Virus record (IMG/VR): IMGVR_UViG_3300027128_000001
Span: 1-64,000 of that record
DNA: 64,000 nt
Source of the DNA: a virus
Strand: one strand, 5' to 3'
Position numbers and translations under genes: made by a program. Positions 28,990 to 62,992 of the stretch are shown one piece after another (the stretch's first letter is position 1; every line of letters starts with the position of its first letter). The notes below the pieces were generated by a model, which was not told the origin of the DNA, searched no databases, and saw only the letters and a list, made by a program, of their open reading frames with translations.

Positions 28990-28997
28990 TATTTATA
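28990..28997 (-). promoter_or_regulatory. Late promoter TATAAATA before the wedge operon
   Basis: An exact TATAAATA on the minus strand, 24 bases before the PAAR ATG and overlapping the last codons of the upstream fiber gene. Its position at the head of an unbroken structural operon supports late-promoter function. Confidence 0.75.
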
Positions 28998-30741
28998 CTA
29001 TCAATTTAGTAATAGCTGATTTATAATTTTGTAGTTCCTCAATTTGAGCTTGCTGCTCTTTGATAGCTTCTACTAATAGACCAACCATGTTGCCATAAGC
29101 TAGTGATAGATGATCTCCATGAACTACAGCCTCCGGTAACACCTTTTCAACATCTTGTGCTATCAAGCCTATCTGGCGATCGCCAGTGTCTGTTCGAGTA
29201 TACGTGTATCCAGTCAACTGACGCACTTTGGAAAGTGCGTCAGGTATTTGTTGTAAATCTGTTTTCAAGCGAATATCAGAGTAAGCGGTGACGTTACCTT
29301 GAGCAATGAAGTTACCGCTAGTATCAGAAGTCCATCTATAGGTGTTTGCTCCATTTGACCAACCTCCAAGTCTAAACACATTGTCTGTGTCTAGACCCAT
29401 GTTAATAGCGTATGCACCAGTTCTGTGAAACGACATAAGGGTACCGCCCGTGCCGGCATTCTGGATCTGAAACTGATCAGATCCACCGTTGGTACCTACT
29501 GTTACAGATGTAGTTTTGCTAATAGTAACGGATGTGAACTGTGGGTTAGCAGGAGCGGATCCTGTATAACCAATAATACCCTGGGATCCAGTATAACCGA
29601 TTACGGTAGACGCAGATCCAGTATAACCAATAATACCCTGGGATCCAGTGTATCCAATAATACCCTGGGATCCAGTATAACCGATTACGGTAGATGCAGA
29701 TCCAGTATAACCAATAATACCCTGGGATCCAGTATAACCGATTACTGTGGACGCGGATCCAGTATAACCAATAATACCCTGGGATCCAGTATAACCGATT
29801 ACTGTGGACGCGGATCCAGTATAACCAATAATACCCTGGGATCCAGTATAACCGATTACGGTAGATGCAGATCCAGTATAACCTTGGCTACCTGTATAGC
29901 CTTGTGATCCAGTATAGCCTCGGCTACCTGTATAGCCTTGTGATCCAGTATAACCTTGGCTACCAGTATAGCCAATTGGACCCTGTACCGTAGATGCTGA
30001 TCCAGTATAACCTTGGCTACCTGTATAGCCTTGTGATCCAGTATAACCTTGGCTACCAGTATAGCCTTGTGATCCAGTATAACCTTGGCTACCAGTATAG
30101 CCAATTGGACCCTGTACCGTAGATGCGGATCCAGTATAGCCTTGGCTACCAGTGTATCCAAGAGGCCCTACTTGCCAAGACCCATCACCGCGTAACCATG
30201 TAGAGCTATTTGCTGTGCCAGACCCTAAACGAGCAGTTGATACTGTACCAGCGTTTAAATTACTAGCATTTTGATAATAGGATCCCTCTTGACCATCTAA
30301 AAGATCAGCGTTAAGGTTTGTGACGGCAGTCGTGGACGCAACAGTAAGAGGAGCAGTTCCTGTTGTGACTGATGATTTAAGAACGGTTCCTCGAATAGAC
30401 CCATTGACTTGTAGCTTGTCGGTTGCATTATCAGTTCCCGTACCTAGCAGTACGTTCCCGCCATACTGGCCAACCTTTACCAATCCTGTATCAAGAACCT
30501 CTATGCTTGGAATTCCCGAAACATCGTTGACTGAAAATATAGTACCAGATAATGAATTGGTAACACTAAACAGCTGACCACTGGATCCTTCAAATGACAG
30601 GGTACCATTGTCTGTGGGATAGACATTTAAACTAATCGTCTGCGGCCCTGTCGACGCATCTGCACCCTTAAACTCAATCTTAGGATCAGCCGTCTGTCCT
30701 ATGTTGGGTGTTATTACTATGTTTTTATCTGAAAGTGCCAT
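28993..30741 (-). CDS. Collagen-like tail fiber with S74 chaperone
   Basis: 582 residues. The N-terminal region (ITPNIGQTADPKIEFKG, LNADLLDGQEGSYY, WLRGDGSW) is typical of phage fibers. Residues about 195-397 are a Gly-X-Y tract of GYTGSQ, GIIGYTGS and GSASTVIG units. Residues about 485-582 are a peptidase S74 chaperone (AYSDIRLKTDLQQIPDALSK, QIGLIAQDVEKVLPEAV) that folds the trimer and is autocleaved. It is a close paralogue of the C-terminus of the 11228-14653 fiber. Confidence 0.9.
   Translation of the reverse strand: MALSDKNIVITPNIGQTADPKIEFKGADASTGPQTISLNVYPTDNGTLSFEGSSGQLFSVTNSLSGTIFSVNDVSGIPSIEVLDTGLVKVGQYGGNVLLGTGTDNATDKLQVNGSIRGTVLKSSVTTGTAPLTVASTTAVTNLNADLLDGQEGSYYQNASNLNAGTVSTARLGSGTANSSTWLRGDGSWQVGPLGYTGSQGYTGSASTVQGPIGYTGSQGYTGSQGYTGSQGYTGSQGYTGSQGYTGSASTVQGPIGYTGSQGYTGSQGYTGSRGYTGSQGYTGSQGYTGSASTVIGYTGSQGIIGYTGSASTVIGYTGSQGIIGYTGSASTVIGYTGSQGIIGYTGSASTVIGYTGSQGIIGYTGSQGIIGYTGSASTVIGYTGSQGIIGYTGSAPANPQFTSVTISKTTSVTVGTNGGSDQFQIQNAGTGGTLMSFHRTGAYAINMGLDTDNVFRLGGWSNGANTYRWTSDTSGNFIAQGNVTAYSDIRLKTDLQQIPDALSKVRQLTGYTYTRTDTGDRQIGLIAQDVEKVLPEAVVHGDHLSLAYGNMVGLLVEAIKEQQAQIEELQNYKSAITKLIV
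29551..30150 (-). repeat. Collagen-like coding repeats
   Basis: Two repeat types lie side by side: a 5' part of GYTGSQ units (about 29880-30150), and a 3' part of longer units combining SASTVIGYTGSQGIIG (about 29551-29880) whose copies are almost identical at DNA level, indicating recent tandem duplication. Confidence 0.88.
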
Positions 30742-34264: not shown

Positions 34265-37051
34265 TCAAAACTCCACTTGCAATTTCTCAACATCAATCCG
34301 CTCAGCAAACACAGTATAGTAGCAATGGATCAATGATGGCATAAGTTCTGTGTTAGCAAGAAACACCTTATTGTCTTCAACTGCCTTGACGTATATAGTT
34401 TGATGAGATCCAATTGACGTTATGTTTACAGTGATTGAGGTAGGATCGACTAGCTTTGTCCAGTAGTCTGGTAGCTCAATAACATTTGTTCCTTTCAGCT
34501 TACCTCTAACATACACTCCATTTTCTGGACCCTCAAGAGACCCATAACGAAGTTTCATTCCAGGATTAGATGGATGATCAATTACGAACGACTTAGTGGT
34601 TGCAGCAAATGATCCGTTAACTTCTAGTTTATATCCGGGAGTAGTTGTTCCAATACCAACATTGCCGTTTCCTCTAATCACCATTAAGGTATTAGAGTTG
34701 TATCCGCTGCTATACAGGCTTCCAAATACCATACTAACCGTGCTACCGTCATATTCTGTGGCTATTCTACCCGTGATGTTAGTTGCATCGCTCCATCTAA
34801 TTCCGCCGCGATCGCTTCTAGAGGTATCATATGTTACGTGCAGTCTTAATAATTCTGTGCTACTGGAGCTGCTTCCTAGTTGTAACAATGCATTGGGTGA
34901 CCCTGTACCAATTCCCAGTCTACCAGACGAGTCAATGGCCATCTGAGTAGTACCATTCTTAACAAATAAAGTACCACCTGTATGATCAGCATCGATACTT
35001 CCAATATATAAAGTATTTACTGCGTTCATACCGAATAATCTAGTTGTCGTCCCGGCAGCTAGTTTGCCTTTTAGATAGGTTGCATTGTCTTGTTGTATAT
35101 CACCACTAACATGCAATTTACTTGCTGGTGAACTCGTCCCAATCCCGACGTTGCCGGAGGAGTCGAGGCGCATATACTCATTACCACCAATCGACCAAGT
35201 TTGAGCGTTCGTAGTCCCGGTGGAGTAGGTCATTTGGTAGTTAGTAATACCCGCCGTTTGAGTAATCCGCAGGCGGTTGTTGTTGCCTGTCGATGTCTCA
35301 AGCAGTTGAATGCCTACGCCGGATGCGCCGTGGATATCCAATTTATAAGCAGGCGAACTTATCCCAATGCCGAGATTTCCAGCAGAAGTGAGACGTATGC
35401 GCTCTGAGGCGTTACTGAACGTCAACGAACCGTCAACACGGTTGTTATCGATCGTCCATACGCCCCCCTGAGAGTCCAGCTTTAACCGCGCAACTGCCGA
35501 GGAGTCGGTTGAAAAGTTAGTTATCTGCGCTGCTACTACCCCCGCAACCGTTCCAGACACATCCAACTTTGACGCCGGTGCCCCCGTCCCAATGCCTACA
35601 TCACCAGTGGAATTAATACGCATGCGCTCGATACCGGCGGTGCCAAATATGAGGCCGTAGTATCCAAACATTCCGGTACCGGACCCGGCCATCCCAGTGT
35701 AGGTTCCCCACCCAATTCCATAACTAGGGACGGTTACGCCAGCAATCGTGCCCGTATCTGTCTGTGCCAAATATCCAATGCGCCCCGTTGATGGGACATT
35801 AATGTTTCCATTGACCTGTAGGACATTGGTGCTATTATCCCATGTGAGGTTTGCAGATCCTGCTGTAGTTCCACTATTGTTGTATAATACCTGTGTGTTG
35901 GACCCACCTATTGGGCCCGCAGATCCAGTGTAACCTTGGCTACCGGTATATCCTATAGCAGCAAATGCTCCAACTGATCCAGTGTATCCCTGCGATCCAG
36001 TATATCCTTGGCTACCTGTATAACCTTGTGATCCAGTATAGCCTTGGGACCCAGTGTACCCCTGTGAGCCGGTATATCCAATAGATCCGGTATACCCTTG
36101 GCTACCTGTATAACCTTGGGATCCAGTATATCCAATAGGTCCTTGTACTGTCGATGCTGAACCAGTATATCCTTGACTGCCAGTATATCCTCGAGAACCA
36201 GTATAACCTTGGGATCCAGTATACCCTTGGCTACCAGTATAGCCTTGGGATCCAGTATATCCAATAGGTCCTTGTACTGTCGAGGCAGATCCAGTATAGC
36301 CCTGGCTACCTGTATATCCAATAGATCCAGTATACCCTATTGGACCTTGGATAGTCGATGCGGATCCTGTATACCCCTGGGACCCAGTATAACCTTGAGA
36401 TCCCGTATACCCCCAGGACCCAGTATATCCCTGGCTTCCAGTATACCCTTGGCTACCAGTATAGCCTTGGGATCCAGTATATCCAATAGGTCCTTGTACT
36501 GTCGAGGCAGATCCAGTATAGCCCTGGCTACCTGTATATCCAATAGATCCGGTATATCCTTGACTGCCAGTATATCCTCGAGAACCAGTATAACCTTGGG
36601 ATCCAGTATATCCTTGGGAGCCAGTATAACCTACTCCCGCGTACGCCCCACTAGATCCTGTATATCCAATCGATCCTGTATATCCAATTGACCCAGTATA
36701 TCCTTGGCTACCTGTATATCCTTGACTACCGGTGTATCCTCGGCTACCTGTATATCCATCAACACCAATGTACCCAGCAGACCCTGTATATCCAATAGCA
36801 GTGGAAGCGGATCCTGTATATCCCCGAGGTCCACCGGGCAAAATTGATTCCCATACGGTACCATTCCATATGTTGAGTAACGGTACAGTTGTATTATACC
36901 ACAACGCTCCTAATTGAGGATCCTGTGGTGCTGTTGCAGATATTGTAACAGAACCACCATGCTCAGCTATCCATTGAAAGTTGATGTCTAGGTCGGATAG
37001 CTGAACTGTATCTTGCTTAGTAGCAAAGGTTACAGGAAGATTTATTGCCAT
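34265..37051 (-). CDS. Long collagen-like tail fiber
   Basis: 928 residues from MAINLPVTF (ATG 37051). The N-terminus (QLSDLDINFQWIAEHGGSV, PQLGALWYNTTVPLLNIWNG) is a virion anchoring motif. Residues about 73-379 are Gly-X-Y repeats, followed by a shaft of repeated LDSSGNVGIGTSSPASKLHVSG-type units. The C-terminus SLEGPENGVYVRGKL, IELPDYWTKLVDP, SITVNITSIGSHQ is a cap domain common in cyanophage fibers. DNA at about 35040-35760 is richer in G+C than flanking DNA. Confidence 0.88.
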   Translation of the reverse strand: MAINLPVTFATKQDTVQLSDLDINFQWIAEHGGSVTISATAPQDPQLGALWYNTTVPLLNIWNGTVWESILPGGPRGYTGSASTAIGYTGSAGYIGVDGYTGSRGYTGSQGYTGSQGYTGSIGYTGSIGYTGSSGAYAGVGYTGSQGYTGSQGYTGSRGYTGSQGYTGSIGYTGSQGYTGSASTVQGPIGYTGSQGYTGSQGYTGSQGYTGSWGYTGSQGYTGSQGYTGSASTIQGPIGYTGSIGYTGSQGYTGSASTVQGPIGYTGSQGYTGSQGYTGSQGYTGSRGYTGSQGYTGSASTVQGPIGYTGSQGYTGSQGYTGSIGYTGSQGYTGSQGYTGSQGYTGSQGYTGSQGYTGSVGAFAAIGYTGSQGYTGSAGPIGGSNTQVLYNNSGTTAGSANLTWDNSTNVLQVNGNINVPSTGRIGYLAQTDTGTIAGVTVPSYGIGWGTYTGMAGSGTGMFGYYGLIFGTAGIERMRINSTGDVGIGTGAPASKLDVSGTVAGVVAAQITNFSTDSSAVARLKLDSQGGVWTIDNNRVDGSLTFSNASERIRLTSAGNLGIGISSPAYKLDIHGASGVGIQLLETSTGNNNRLRITQTAGITNYQMTYSTGTTNAQTWSIGGNEYMRLDSSGNVGIGTSSPASKLHVSGDIQQDNATYLKGKLAAGTTTRLFGMNAVNTLYIGSIDADHTGGTLFVKNGTTQMAIDSSGRLGIGTGSPNALLQLGSSSSSTELLRLHVTYDTSRSDRGGIRWSDATNITGRIATEYDGSTVSMVFGSLYSSGYNSNTLMVIRGNGNVGIGTTTPGYKLEVNGSFAATTKSFVIDHPSNPGMKLRYGSLEGPENGVYVRGKLKGTNVIELPDYWTKLVDPTSITVNITSIGSHQTIYVKAVEDNKVFLANTELMPSLIHCYYTVFAERIDVEKLQVEF
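35919..36840 (-). repeat. Collagen-like coding repeats
   Basis: Eighteen-base units for Gly-Tyr-Thr-Gly-Ser-(Gln/Ile/Arg), interrupted by GSASTVQGPIGYTGS cassettes that recur at intervals of roughly 100-180 bases. Long stretches are nearly identical to each other and to arrays near 2.5 kb and 30 kb. Confidence 0.9.
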
Positions 37052-37569
37052 GGCCAAATATCCTCGTTCCAATCAGTGCGTTCGTTCCAACGATTGATCC
37101 ACACGACAGAGTTGTTGTTATTATTCTTCCAAGTTGCTGTTATTTCTTTATATCCGCCAGTTTTCAAGAAGGACATTAGACGATTTCTATTAGATGATAA
37201 GTTATTGTTGACAATGATCTGATACAATTTTGTTTCGTTATTAGCGCTGGCAGTGTAATGGAAGGTTATTGTTTCTGCTGGGTCTGCTGTAAAGCTGAAA
37301 ATTGATTGTCTATCAATTTCAGGTACACCTCGGAGAGTATCGGCTGATTGCACATCCAATCCAGATTTATATTGGACATCGTCATTGAAGGGATGCCTAA
37401 AGAACCCACTAATCTTATTGCCTAAGATTGTTACATAAGGGTTTGTTACAGATGGTGTTATAGTAACAGGATGTTCTGTTACACCATCTGTATATTTAAT
37501 AGTATACTCAAACTCCGTACCTTCATACACAGTAGCAAGAACAGTTTGATCTGGCGTAAACATTCCCAT
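37042..37569 (-). CDS. Virion-associated protein of unknown function
   Basis: 175 residues, beta-rich N-terminus (ATVYEGTEFEYTIKYTDGV) and an Asn/Trp-rich C-terminus ending WNEDIWPWQ. It lies between the gp5-like hub gene and the long fiber gene, overlapping the latter by 10 bases, so it is probably a late structural or fiber-attachment protein. No family recognised with certainty. Confidence 0.55.
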   Translation of the reverse strand: MGMFTPDQTVLATVYEGTEFEYTIKYTDGVTEHPVTITPSVTNPYVTILGNKISGFFRHPFNDDVQYKSGLDVQSADTLRGVPEIDRQSIFSFTADPAETITFHYTASANNETKLYQIIVNNNLSSNRNRLMSFLKTGGYKEITATWKNNNNNSVVWINRWNERTDWNEDIWPWQ

Positions 37570-53494: not shown

Positions 53495-53523
53495 ATATTA
53501 GATGATTATGGATTTAATGTCAA
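53495..53523 (-). promoter_or_regulatory. Early sigma70-type promoter overlapping the clpP-like stop
   Basis: TTGACA, 17-base spacer TTAAATCCATAATCATC, TAATAT. The TGA stop of the ClpP-like gene is the TGA of the -35 hexamer. Confidence 0.82.
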
Positions 53524-54191
53524 CTCGCCTTCTTTTTCGCAGCAGGGCGCGTTGTCGCTTTCTTCTTCGCTTTGGCTGCAGCGTTGTCTTTCCTCTCTGC
53601 AGCCTTTTGCTTCGCTTCGAAGAACTGAACTCGCTTAGTCATTCGCTGTTTAATATCTTCTGCATCGAACCAAAGTTCAACACCAGCTTTGACTTGAGCC
53701 ATTTCCTCCTTTGTGAGGAACCCTTCATATGTTTCGGCGAGGATCTTTTCTACTTGACGAACGGTAAATTCCGTATGGAGTTTTACGTTGCCAGCTGTTC
53801 CAACAGATCCGAAAGATGCTGTGTGGACCATTGAGTATGCACTATCCAATACAATCACCTCATCGCAATACATCGAAATAATTGATGCTGCTGAATGACA
53901 TGCACCAACAAGGACGGCTGTCACTTTTGCTGGTGTGTTCTTCAGGCCTTCGATGATCGCCATAGCAGTATCAAGCTGACCACCTTCTGAATTGATGATT
54001 AGGTTGAATACATCGTCATCCCCTGCATTAAACAGGAGGGAAATCAACTCACGATATTCAGAAGGATCTCCAATGCTACCGTCAAGGAAAACATCGTGAT
54101 GTTGGTAGCTATGGACTACCGAGTTGATATACTGGTCACCCTTAAGAAGAGCTGCCAGAGACATTGGACTGCCTAGATTTTGTTCTTTCAT
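53520..54191 (-). CDS. ClpP-like serine protease with basic C-terminal tail
   Basis: 223 residues from MKEQNLGSPM, which has GGAG upstream. Core ClpP features: NLIINSEGGQLDTAMAI (handle glycines), the nucleophile segment VLVGACHSAAS (Ser100), YSMVHTASFG (His123), and an acidic candidate around LWFDAEDI (Asp176). A Lys/Ala-rich tail (about 195-223) follows that bacterial ClpP lacks. It would act with a host or phage AAA+ partner, or alone; no Clp ATPase is in this window. It overlaps the SleB-like gene by 50 bases. Confidence 0.88.
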   Translation of the reverse strand: MKEQNLGSPMSLAALLKGDQYINSVVHSYQHHDVFLDGSIGDPSEYRELISLLFNAGDDDVFNLIINSEGGQLDTAMAIIEGLKNTPAKVTAVLVGACHSAASIISMYCDEVIVLDSAYSMVHTASFGSVGTAGNVKLHTEFTVRQVEKILAETYEGFLTKEEMAQVKAGVELWFDAEDIKQRMTKRVQFFEAKQKAAERKDNAAAKAKKKATTRPAAKKKAS

Positions 54192-54759
54192 TATCCACTC
54201 CATAAAAAATGTGCTGGCCGATTCTGGCTGTGACCCTCAAGTTTGTCATTCCTAGTTCGCTTTTGTGTACATAATCAGCATGGTAAAATAGTGCACCACG
54301 GGTGATATCAGGAAGGGTACGATAATTTATAAAAACATCATGCGCGATCTTCCAAATTTCTTGATATGTTTCGCGATTGAAGGCTCTTCTTACAGCAGTC
54401 ATTCGCGACCTCTCATCACACCACCAGGAGAATTGGCAAACAGGGCCAACTTGTTGTTTAACCACTTCACAAACGGTCTTTGGAAATCTGCGTGAAGTAG
54501 CCCGGTTCATTGTGACAAACGCTACTGCACGTTTGCCTTCTTTACTCTCTGAACGCGCTTCGAAATAGATGTTGGCAGCCAGACAATCAATCTGCGCTTT
54601 CATATGTTCATCGATGTGCGTCTGTTTATATGTATGGGTAGTAGGCTCCTTGTTAACAGAAACAATTTCAGCTTTCACAGGCTTACTATCCTGCGTGGAT
54701 CCAATGGTCAATAAAGTCGTCAGGAATGCGGCAATGCAAGCAGATAGATTTGGTTGCAT
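54142..54759 (-). CDS. SleB-type cell wall hydrolase
   Basis: 205 residues with an N-terminal hydrophobic signal-like segment (about 5-22) and AAGGAAG before the ATG. LAANIYFEARSESKEGKRAVAFVTMNRATS is the Hydrolase_2 (SleB/CwlJ) signature with the conserved E of YFEAR as catalytic candidate, followed by CQFSWWCDE. It cleaves peptidoglycan as a transglycosylase or amidase. It lies near a GH19 endolysin and a candidate holin, forming a lysis region. Export by the signal segment is inferred. Confidence 0.88.
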   Translation of the reverse strand: MQPNLSACIAAFLTTLLTIGSTQDSKPVKAEIVSVNKEPTTHTYKQTHIDEHMKAQIDCLAANIYFEARSESKEGKRAVAFVTMNRATSRRFPKTVCEVVKQQVGPVCQFSWWCDERSRMTAVRRAFNRETYQEIWKIAHDVFINYRTLPDITRGALFYHADYVHKSELGMTNLRVTARIGQHIFYGVDNERTKSRQSNVSGSSS

Positions 54760-59912: not shown

Positions 59913-60479
59913 TTACGTCAGTTTTGCGCGTAATCTTGAGTGTGATGGTAGAGCAGACTTCAGAAACTCCATCTGATCAGCAAGGATCTTCCTGTTGCAC
60001 ATAATCAACCCCTCTTCACGACATGGAATGTATGGAAGATAGAGAAGAGACATTCCACACTCTTCAAGAAGGCGATCATCCTTCTTGTTGTTGCAGCGTC
60101 TACATGAGGTAACACAATTCATCCAGGTATGACCACCTCCACGTGACTTTGGAGTGATGTGGTCATTAGTAAGATCACGGTACTCACACTCTTCACCACA
60201 GTAAGCACAAATGTTCAGATCTCGGCCGAACAATGTACGGTTGGTCAGCATCAGGGGCTTTCGTTTTGGATGGTGGGTCCCTCTAACAGCTATGATCGAT
60301 GAGAATGAAACTCGAGATCTGTTTCCAGATAGTTTGTTCTCACCGCCGTGCTTGGTCCACGACCAGTCCCCTGTTTCCCATGCTACAACGTCTTTGACTT
60401 TATATGTTACAGCATCCTGCCAGGTCGACCAGTGTGTCGGCGTTCCGTGTTCGTTTAGTGTAAGTATCAATGGGGTCAT
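59913..60479 (-). CDS. HNH endonuclease
   Basis: 188 residues from MTPLILTLNE. The HNH/beta-beta-alpha-metal core reads CAYCGEECEYRDLTNDHITPKS (C-x2-C, DH) then NCVTSCRRCNNKK (N, C-x2-C, NxxK). It has a beta-rich N-terminal domain (about 1-75) of the type seen in free-standing phage HNH proteins, possibly homing or DNA-packaging related. It lies directly 3' of the tmRNA gene, possibly on the same transcript. Confidence 0.88.
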   Translation of the reverse strand: MTPLILTLNEHGTPTHWSTWQDAVTYKVKDVVAWETGDWSWTKHGGENKLSGNRSRVSFSSIIAVRGTHHPKRKPLMLTNRTLFGRDLNICAYCGEECEYRDLTNDHITPKSRGGGHTWMNCVTSCRRCNNKKDDRLLEECGMSLLYLPYIPCREEGLIMCNRKILADQMEFLKSALPSHSRLRAKLT

Positions 60480-60547
60480 TTGAATCACTAACTCATGTTT
60501 GTGGGGGTATTGGATAACAAGGAACCCCCGAAACCCCGCTTAGCCGA

Positions 60548-60595
60548 TCAAGCAGCTAAGGCAAATACCTCATCGTTGGCATTTGTGGTTATTGC
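60548..60595 (-). other. tmRNA proteolysis-tag reading frame
   Basis: GCA resume codon at 60595 to TGA at 60548: AITTNANDEVFALAA. The AND.. start region and ALAA end match bacterial SsrA tags; the ALAA end is the ClpX/ClpA recognition signal. The upstream bases GTCGTAGAA resemble the TAGTC-type resume context. Confidence 0.9.
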
Positions 60596-60688
60596 TTCTA
60601 CGACCGGGTAATCCCAATCCTAACGACTTTCGCATTGCCGAACTGTCCACTCTGTTACTCATTGCCCTGTCGAACCTATTTCGCCCCC

Positions 60689-60770
60689 ATCAAAAGTAAT
60701 CTAGTTTGGATTCGAACCTTGTCCATGTATTGTCTACCTGCACGTCCCACCGTACTGGCCAGATTACTTT
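60689..60770 (-). other. Intervening segment of the tmRNA precursor with a long closing stem
   Basis: AAAAGTAATCTGG (from 60771 down) pairs with CTAGATTACTTTT (692-704), a 13-pair stem with one G-U that stacks on the acceptor stem and sets the CCA end opposite the 5' G. The loop contains GGTTCGAATCC, a T-loop mimic. It is probably removed by RNase processing. Confidence 0.75.
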
Positions 60771-60838
60771 TGGTGGAGGCGGCGAGGCACTGCCCCCCGC
60801 GTCCAGAACACTTTTCTCTTTGCTTCATACAGTCATTC

Positions 60839-61309
60839 TTATAATATCTCAAACCTCAAATTAGCGTGGTCTGGATATTGTACTGCCACTTCTCCTTCAG
60901 GACATTTATAATTGATATGCCCCAAAAGAGTTGCTGTTCCTTTTGCTATCATACTACGGTGATCTTTATCAATAGTAAAAGTGTATGCAAAGGTGTCAAC
61001 TCTATGATTAGCTGGCCCAGAAAACTTCGTGACACTGGGTGTAGCTGGGTGAGCGTGATACTTGCTATCTTTTACTTCAATCGCGAATCCTGTCACATCA
61101 CAATCATTTCTTAGTTTTTCTCGAGCTACTACTACATCAAACGTACCATCAACTGGTCCACTTGATATACGAAAATGTTCAGGGTGCCACTTTAAAATTT
61201 CTTTCGATGCTATCTGCTTCCATACTTCAAAACCGCCACCTAACATTGCAAATGTCGCTGCGATAACACCCAAGACTTTCTTCAAGCCTTCGATGTCTAG
61301 GGAAAGCAT
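60839..61309 (-). CDS. Membrane-anchored protein of unknown function
   Basis: 156 residues with a strong AAAGGAGG ribosome site. A short N-terminal helix (about 10-28, KKVLGVIAATFAMLGGGFEVW) probably anchors it; the rest looks like a beta-sandwich (SGPVDGTFDVVVAREKL, TFAYTFTIDKDHRSMIAKG). The promoter at 61403 lies about 100 bases upstream, and the tmRNA begins immediately downstream, so both may share one transcript. No family recognised. Confidence 0.6.
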   Translation of the reverse strand: MLSLDIEGLKKVLGVIAATFAMLGGGFEVWKQIASKEILKWHPEHFRISSGPVDGTFDVVVAREKLRNDCDVTGFAIEVKDSKYHAHPATPSVTKFSGPANHRVDTFAYTFTIDKDHRSMIAKGTATLLGHINYKCPEGEVAVQYPDHANLRFEIL

Positions 61310-62611: not shown

Positions 62612-62687
62612 TGGCCTGCCCGGCAGGAATCGAACCTGCGACCCACAGCTTAGAAGGCTGTTGTTCTATCCCCTGAACTACGGGCAG
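62612..62687 (-). tRNA. tRNA-Arg (anticodon TCT), CCA encoded
   Basis: Acceptor CTGCCCG/CGGGCAG, D-arm GTTCAGGGGATAGAAC, anticodon arm ACAGC-CTTCTAA-GCTGT, T-arm GCAGG-TTCGATT-CCTGC, discriminator G, CCA encoded. All stems pair fully. TCT reads AGA/AGG codons. Confidence 0.97.
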
Positions 62688-62693
62688 AATAAA

Positions 62694-62897
62694 TTAGCAG
62701 CCTTCGTCTCTGGCAATATCAGCTAGAATCTCTTTAGTGAGAACATCAACAGCAGAGAGTACACATTCTTCTGTACTCAGGATGTCTTGATAGTCGTTTG
62801 ACTTTCGTTTGAAGATCAGATCGTAGTTGTCACGATACGATTGAGTAGTACCTTTTGTTTGAATACTATCACCTGTAATATCGTTCTTTGCTACCAT
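62694..62897 (-). CDS. Small phage protein between tRNA genes
   Basis: 67 residues, AGGAG before the ATG. KNDITGDSIQTKG, DNYDLIFKRKSNDYQ, then a helical acidic end (LTKEILADIARDEGC). The only gene between the two tRNAs and on the same strand. The pattern NYDLI..K resembles small proteins in phage and bacterial genomes, without function. Confidence 0.6.
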   Translation of the reverse strand: MVAKNDITGDSIQTKGTTQSYRDNYDLIFKRKSNDYQDILSTEECVLSAVDVLTKEILADIARDEGC

Positions 62898-62913
62898 AAT
62901 AAACTCCTAATGG

Positions 62914-62992
62914 TGGTCTCCGAGGTGGGATTCGAACTCACGTTATTCCTCATCCCAAATGAGGTGCCATAACCGGACTAGGCGACTCGGAG
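62914..62992 (-). tRNA. tRNA-Pro (anticodon TGG), CCA encoded
   Basis: Acceptor CTCCGAG/CTCGGAG, anticodon arm CCTCA-TTTGGGA-TGAGG, T-loop TTCGAAT with stem GTGAG/CCCAC (one mismatch), discriminator A, CCA encoded. TGG reads CCA/CCG and wobble CCN. Confidence 0.95.

Follow-up and report, generated by a model that had tools for sequence, protein, structure and literature searches.

A complete circularly permuted (two-piece) tmRNA gene lies on the minus strand of a T4-like viral contig at positions 60834-60500, as read from the sequence and from Rfam alignments, and we consider it very probable that it is a functional, phage-encoded gene. The window analysed here, to which all coordinates refer, is the stretch of 64,000 nucleotides formed by positions 1 to 64,000 of the IMG/VR virus record IMGVR_UViG_3300027128_000001. 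Phage permuted tmRNA genes are of a kind already known, and the present one extends a known, little-studied group, the ribosome-rescue RNAs carried by phages. Two features associated with it look unreported in the literature, as far as our limited search extended, and would matter more than the gene itself: a tag, ANDEVFALAA, that appears to be confined to phages, and protein genes nested within the excised segment of related tmRNAs. As one possible reading, we tentatively suggest that aquatic T4-like phages have a long-lived permuted tmRNA lineage of their own, whose tag no bacterium uses, and that the excised segment serves related phages as a structured, tolerated slot for small protein genes.

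Anatomy of the gene

The preliminary description of this DNA had proposed a permuted two-piece tmRNA on the minus strand and had named a covariance-model search as a check. Two Rfam families bear the proposal out: RF04321 (tmRNA_permuted) aligns over its whole model length to positions 60834-60548 with 114.2 bits (E 1.6e-21; gathering cut-off 47), and RF01849 (alpha_tmRNA) aligns to positions 60892-60500 with 71.9 bits, likewise above its gathering cut-off of 50. A third family, RF01850 (beta_tmRNA), scores 73.9 bits, which is below its gathering cut-off of 84. ARAGORN, another check that had been named, gave a divided answer: at default settings it calls only two tRNAs and no tmRNA at the locus, but a score threshold lowered to 80% yields a permuted tmRNA (60457-60864) whose tag is ANDEVFALAA. 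The gene is composed as follows.

60771..60834, minus strand: acceptor piece (tRNA-like 3' part: T arm, acceptor 3' strand, discriminator, CCA), from the RF04321 and RF01849 alignments and direct reading; the 5' end is model-derived
60689..60770, minus strand: intervening segment of 82 nt, expected to be excised from the precursor; 12-bp closing helix 60770-60759 / 60704-60693
60500..60688, minus strand: coding piece (tRNA-like 5' part and mRNA-like part) with GGGGGCG (60688-60682), D-loop-like region, pseudoknot region, tag and terminal hairpin; the 3' end is approximate, taken from the alpha_tmRNA model
60548..60595, minus strand: tag reading frame GCA-ATA-ACC-ACA-AAT-GCC-AAC-GAT-GAG-GTA-TTT-GCC-TTA-GCT-GCT-TGA, read as AITTNANDEVFALAA and stop; GCA to GCT at 60595-60551, stop TGA at 60550-60548
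60539..60560, minus strand: P5-type hairpin CTTAGCTG/CGGCTAAG; 8-bp helix 60560-60553 / 60546-60539 with the tag stop in its loop
60503..60529, minus strand: 3'-terminal hairpin GGGGGT/ACCCCC; arms 60529-60524 / 60508-60503

The acceptor piece lies upstream of the coding piece, and its strand CGCCTCC (60781-60775) pairs with the GGGGGCG that opens the latter, just as had been claimed; the stem has seven base pairs including G3.U70. This G3.U70 pair, the A discriminator (60774) and the encoded CCA (60773-60771), all read directly, are the identity features for alanine. The T arm is unusual in this copy, with a 6-bp stem and the loop GGCAGUG. The tag frame is open, has a ClpXP-type -LAA end and terminates in a stop codon, whose placement in a P5-type hairpin had also been recognized correctly; judging from the frame and the alignment, GCA would be the resume codon.

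Conservation and covariation in relatives

Related viral contigs were collected by the motif of the 5' piece, by the tag, and by two acceptor-plus-spacer patterns that are blind to the tag. IMG/VR contigs may include host fragments, and the counts from these scans refer to the matches listed and are not abundances. The covariation set comprises 143 unique permuted tmRNAs with a spacer of at least 44 nt, one of which (L016) is a false positive of our finder. The seven acceptor pairs are formed in 142-143 of these 143 relatives, and the compensatory changes anticipated for this stem are seen as pair swaps at 4-69, 5-68 and 6-67; one position, for example, reads GC in 76, TA in 33, AT in 27 and CG in 5 sequences. 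The alanine identity pair G3.U70 is kept in 142 of the 143. Members that carry ANDEVFALAA use ten different acceptor stems, all of 7 bp.

The hairpins fare differently. For the P5-type stop-codon hairpin, which had likewise been expected to covary, the 8-bp helix is clear in the window, but the support from relatives is modest, with 68% of 305 relatives versus 48% of shuffles forming a helix of 5 bp or more. The 3'-terminal hairpin is more strongly supported: a helix of at least 5 bp is found in 90% of 140 relatives versus 63% of shuffles, with 74 distinct arm pairs.

The closest relatives in sequence are four viral contigs (L190, L260, L185 and L224), which are 72-75% identical over 280-326 nt and have GGGGGTG/CACCTCC as acceptor stems. 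At default settings, ARAGORN recognizes 65 of 73 unique tmRNAs with ANDEVFALAA, compared with only 126 of 179 unique sequences of the GGGGGCG type; annotations thus miss many permuted tmRNAs of phages.

A tag found in phages

The tag was searched for with a degenerate 33-nt pattern, encoding ANDEVFALAA and a stop, in viral contigs and in 84,980 bacterial and archaeal species genomes. The pattern occurs in 115 viral contigs (L164-L278) and once in the species genomes (L163), there on a misbinned phage contig. This 6.7-kb contig, binned into a Flavobacteriales MAG, is collinear with a viral contig, including MazG, Hsp20 and the tmRNA, at 71-86% identity over most aligned parts, and a further, standard tmRNA match lies on another contig of the MAG. 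Among the 84,980 species genomes, no true bacterial chromosome with ANDEVFALAA was found. A Bacteroidota tag pattern, used as a positive control, had matches in 28 of 148 genomes and its reversed form in none; therefore, tag patterns of this kind do detect bacterial tags. Naming the host from the tag was considered and rejected, the sole species-genome match being a phage contig. The string ANDEVFALAA was likewise not found in a limited search of the literature.

Since the ANDEVFALAA set was gathered by peptide, its uniformity is partly by construction, and conservation of the tag was judged on the tag-blind samples only. Among the matches listed there that have sufficient sequence, an open tag with an -AA end is present in 74 of 76 unique GGGCCAG-type and in 87 of 89 unique GGGGGCG-type tmRNAs. 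ANDEVFALAA is the commonest tag of the GGGCCAG-type sample (15 of 81 unique sequences among the matches listed), in which ANDEKFALAA, ANDESYALAA and others also occur; the tags of the GGGGGCG long-spacer sample are, among the matches listed, almost exclusively of the ANDN type. The combination seen in the window, a GGGGGCG acceptor with an ANDE-type tag, is found in only four unique sequences of the ANDEVFALAA set. On the DNA level, 49 different encodings of the tag occur in 74 unique ANDEVFALAA tmRNAs. A phage-only tag would be a natural marker: peptides ending in ANDEVFALAA in the proteomes of infected communities would reveal if phage trans-translation takes place, at what time and on which proteins.

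The intervening segment and nested genes

The 82-nt segment of the window (60770-60689), which the preliminary description had left unmentioned, folds with -26.3 kcal/mol (z -1.8 versus shuffles), including its 12-bp closing helix. Across the 143 sequences, a closing helix of 10-12 bp is 92-98% paired at most positions and less so at both ends, and many of its positions show four to six types of base pair; it is conserved as a structure while its sequence changes. Plausibly, this helix would keep the two acceptor strands joined in the precursor and expose the sites of cleavage. Two candidate features of the window's own segment were rejected, namely a small gene, for which the best candidate, a GTG frame of 24 codons, has no good ribosome site, and a tRNA remnant or mimic around the T-arm-like motif GGTTCGAATCC, where no tRNA match is obtained even at E 10. 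Across 140 segments, T-arm-like motifs of this kind show no clear enrichment (5 observed versus 1.5 expected from shuffles, which reach up to 6).

Many relatives, as opposed to the window, have a longer segment with a small reading frame. These frames, which amount to nested protein genes of ~22-77 aa, often have their ribosome site (Shine-Dalgarno) in the 5' arm of the helix and their stop in a conserved TGAT that immediately precedes the 5' piece, as is clearly seen in L048. Three families of nested genes show, in their substitution patterns, the signature of purifying selection: by simple pooled counts, over loci that can be close relatives within a family, pN/pS is 0.30 in family A (nine loci: L038, L115, L125, L137, L142, L062, L075, L106 and L080), 0.35 in family B (six loci: L093, L114, L098, L045, L097 and L043) and 0.45 in family C (two loci: L053 and L144). 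Further nested-gene loci are L164, L270, L048, L118, L047, L076 and L068. Searches of gene catalogues with the nested proteins returned at best a DUF2061 match just under the Pfam cut-off, for one longer frame. These genes indicate that cargo under selection can be accommodated in the excised part of a permuted tmRNA, which is a possible reason for phages to keep the permuted form.

Genomic context

The contig, which is 82 kb long and incomplete, is T4-like, as the preliminary description had it: its gp32-type ssDNA-binding protein matches PHROG 224 with E 1.3e-108 and is ~50% identical to cyanophage gp32. It carries 10 tRNAs. The tmRNA gene is embedded in a tight same-strand gene run, together with which the following features are of interest.

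59913..60488, minus strand: HNH endonuclease gene, neighbour; its start lies 12 nt past the RNA
60839..61309, minus strand: gene for a 156-aa protein without assigned function, neighbour; its end lies 4 nt before the RNA
62612..62992, minus strand: tRNA-Arg(TCT) and tRNA-Pro(TGG), on the same strand as the tmRNA
53520..54203, minus strand: ClpP-like protease gene (PHROG 1827, E 7.6e-52; PDB ClpP chains, E 2.8e-7), a possible partner

In relatives, the tmRNA genes adjoin T4-type genes on the same strand, and a second contig (29.9 kb, from another metagenome) has the same tmRNA gene and neighbour. The HNH neighbour was considered as a homing endonuclease that spreads the tmRNA and was rejected, no homologue being found near other tmRNAs. 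The ClpP-like gene of the window is 6.3 kb away from the tmRNA, and in its product the aligned position of the catalytic Asp is occupied by Glu, according to our reading of the alignment. In other loci, a ClpP-like gene lies within 1.5 kb (often ~0.5 kb) of the tmRNA (L180, L219, L227, L231, L237, L253, L264, L267 and two more), an arrangement suggestive of a functional pair. No SmpB or SspB gene was found in the incomplete 82-kb contig; consequently, the phage would have to rely on host SmpB.

Around the tRNA/tmRNA region, the minus strand has three perfect 12/12 matches to a sigma-70 promoter (TTGACA-17-TATAAT), at 63383-63355, 59544-59516 and 59217-59189. Elsewhere in the window, collagen-like GYTGSQ repeat proteins are encoded at 28993-30741 and 34265-37072, probably by tail fibre or adhesin genes.

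Proposed function and alternatives

By analogy, the course of processing, charging, rescue and proteolysis, and the benefit to the phage, can be sketched as follows. The gene would be transcribed together with its neighbours into a precursor folded by pairing of its two acceptor strands, with the acceptor stem prolonged by a long helix of the intervening segment. This segment would be removed by tRNA enzymes of the host, RNase P on the 5' side and 3' processing after the encoded CCA, such that two RNA pieces remain, joined by base pairs. Host AlaRS would then charge the RNA via G3.U70, and host SmpB and EF-Tu would deliver it to ribosomes stalled on broken mRNAs, where a tag ending in ANDEVFALAA would be added and mark the peptide for ClpXP-type proteases. 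The likely use of this system would be to maintain ribosome turnover while host mRNA is destroyed and host expression is shut off. If the phages indeed own a distinct tag, it would let them tell apart the products of their own rescue or steer these towards a protease of their choice.

The alternative that survives best takes such steering as the purpose of the gene: a phage tag unlike that of the host would direct products to a phage-controlled protease (phage ClpP) or let them escape a host adaptor such as SspB. This agrees with the occurrence of ANDEVFALAA in 115 viral contigs and, among the species genomes, only on the misbinned phage contig, and also with the ClpP-like gene in the contig and its proximity to the tmRNA in 10 related loci. 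Yet these loci with a nearby ClpP-like gene are few in number and closely related, the ClpP gene of the window itself is more distant and deviates at its catalytic Asp position, the LAA end fits ordinary ClpXP, and the tags of other phages resemble those of hosts (ANDN.. in the alpha-type sample). We consider this explanation improbable, although it retains some weight; a redirecting role together with the phage ClpP-like protein, resting on proximity in a few related phages, is possible.

We give little credence to the idea that the phage RNA is a decoy that binds SmpB or stalled ribosomes and thereby blocks host trans-translation, comparable to the DS6A tmRNA with its tRNA domain only. A phage tmRNA reduced to the tRNA-like domain is reported to inhibit the endogenous tmRNA (PMC4131195, PMC11915505). 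A decoy, however, needs no tag, and the explanation is unlikely because the tag stays open in tag-blind relatives, in the two proportions given above for the unique sequences among the matches listed; the almost invariant alanine identity pair argues against it as well.

Integration into bacterial tmRNA genes is common, and prophages carry fragments of these genes along. In view of this, which is also discussed in PMC9004378, the gene could be a recent capture from a host, or its locus a stretch of host DNA within a viral contig, and in either case have no role in the phage. We give this very little credence, given that the same gene and neighbour recur on a second contig from another metagenome, that the closest relatives in sequence are other viral contigs, that relatives have a T4-type gene context on the same strand, that the tag was not found in the bacterial genomes scanned, and that the exact 24-nt start GGGGGCGAAATAGGTTCGACAGGG is present in none of the species genomes. 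Lastly, a chance resemblance assembled from tRNA-like pieces, in whose favour stands the missing call by default ARAGORN, is far exceeded by the Rfam scores and refuted by the E-value of 1.6e-21, the second family above its cut-off and the covariation.

Relation to known phage tmRNAs

The preliminary description had regarded tmRNA genes as reported from only a few phages and a permuted one in a T4-like phage as notable; this claim of rarity does not stand. Phage tmRNAs have been known for years (PMC4131195). In a screen of 18,146 phage genomes with ARAGORN, published in 2022, 53 of the 402 tmRNA-bearing genomes had two-piece tmRNAs, 50 of these 53 came from marine or aquatic samples, and a two-piece tmRNA was described in the T4-like methylophage Melnitz (PMC9004378). 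In GenBank, Pelagibacter phage Mosig and Stenotrophomonas phage Marzo likewise have an annotated tmRNA, which our finder and ARAGORN read as permuted. A 2025 database, the source of the RF04321 model, holds 79 bacteriophage tmRNA sequences; the accessible part of its publication calls a tRNA gene within one intervening sequence unique and makes no mention of nested protein genes (PMC11915505).

The window gene shares with the permuted tmRNAs of RF04321, RF01849, RF01850 and RF01851 (cyano_tmRNA) the order of acceptor piece, intervening segment and coding piece, G3.U70, the encoded CCA, the tag frame and the stop-codon hairpin. Its T loop and its acceptor GGGGGCG/CGCCTCC are alpha-like, whereas its tag is of the ANDE type, unlike the ANDN-type tag of alphaproteobacterial tmRNAs, for which reason we did not assign it to the alpha subtype. 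Its scores with the alpha and beta models are almost equal, and the 82-nt intervening segment with its 12-bp closing helix is unlike the Rfam permuted families.

The tmRNAs of mycobacteriophages Bxz1, Wildcat and DS6A and of Bacillus phage G are not known to be permuted; that of DS6A, unlike the window tmRNA, has no tag. What the window shares with these phages is the carriage of ssrA (PMC4131195). A permuted tmRNA near tRNA and T4-type genes is also found in the T4-like aquatic phages Melnitz (OM43) and Mosig (SAR11) (PMC9004378). The glutamine riboswitch described in the 3' domain of the Melnitz gene (PMC9004378) was not found here with Rfam, and the window RNA has no blastn match to Melnitz or Mosig, the similarity being only distant.

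Likewise, the Stenotrophomonas phages Marzo and IME-SM1 (Menderavirus) have a permuted tmRNA in the tRNA cluster of a T4-like phage, with the tag AANDDSYTVRIAA, unlike that of the window. Stenotrophomonas, a gammaproteobacterium, should itself have a one-piece tmRNA. In several records of the group to which Marzo and IME-SM1 (L280 and L283) belong, the permuted tmRNA is unannotated, and permuted tmRNA genes are also unannotated in the public records of Ruegeria phage V10, Rhodobacter phage RcXuper and Mesorhizobium phage Cp1R7A-A1 (L161, L162 and L160). The permuted tmRNA of Cp1R7A-A1 is ~1.4 kb away from a gene annotated as tRNA splicing ligase.
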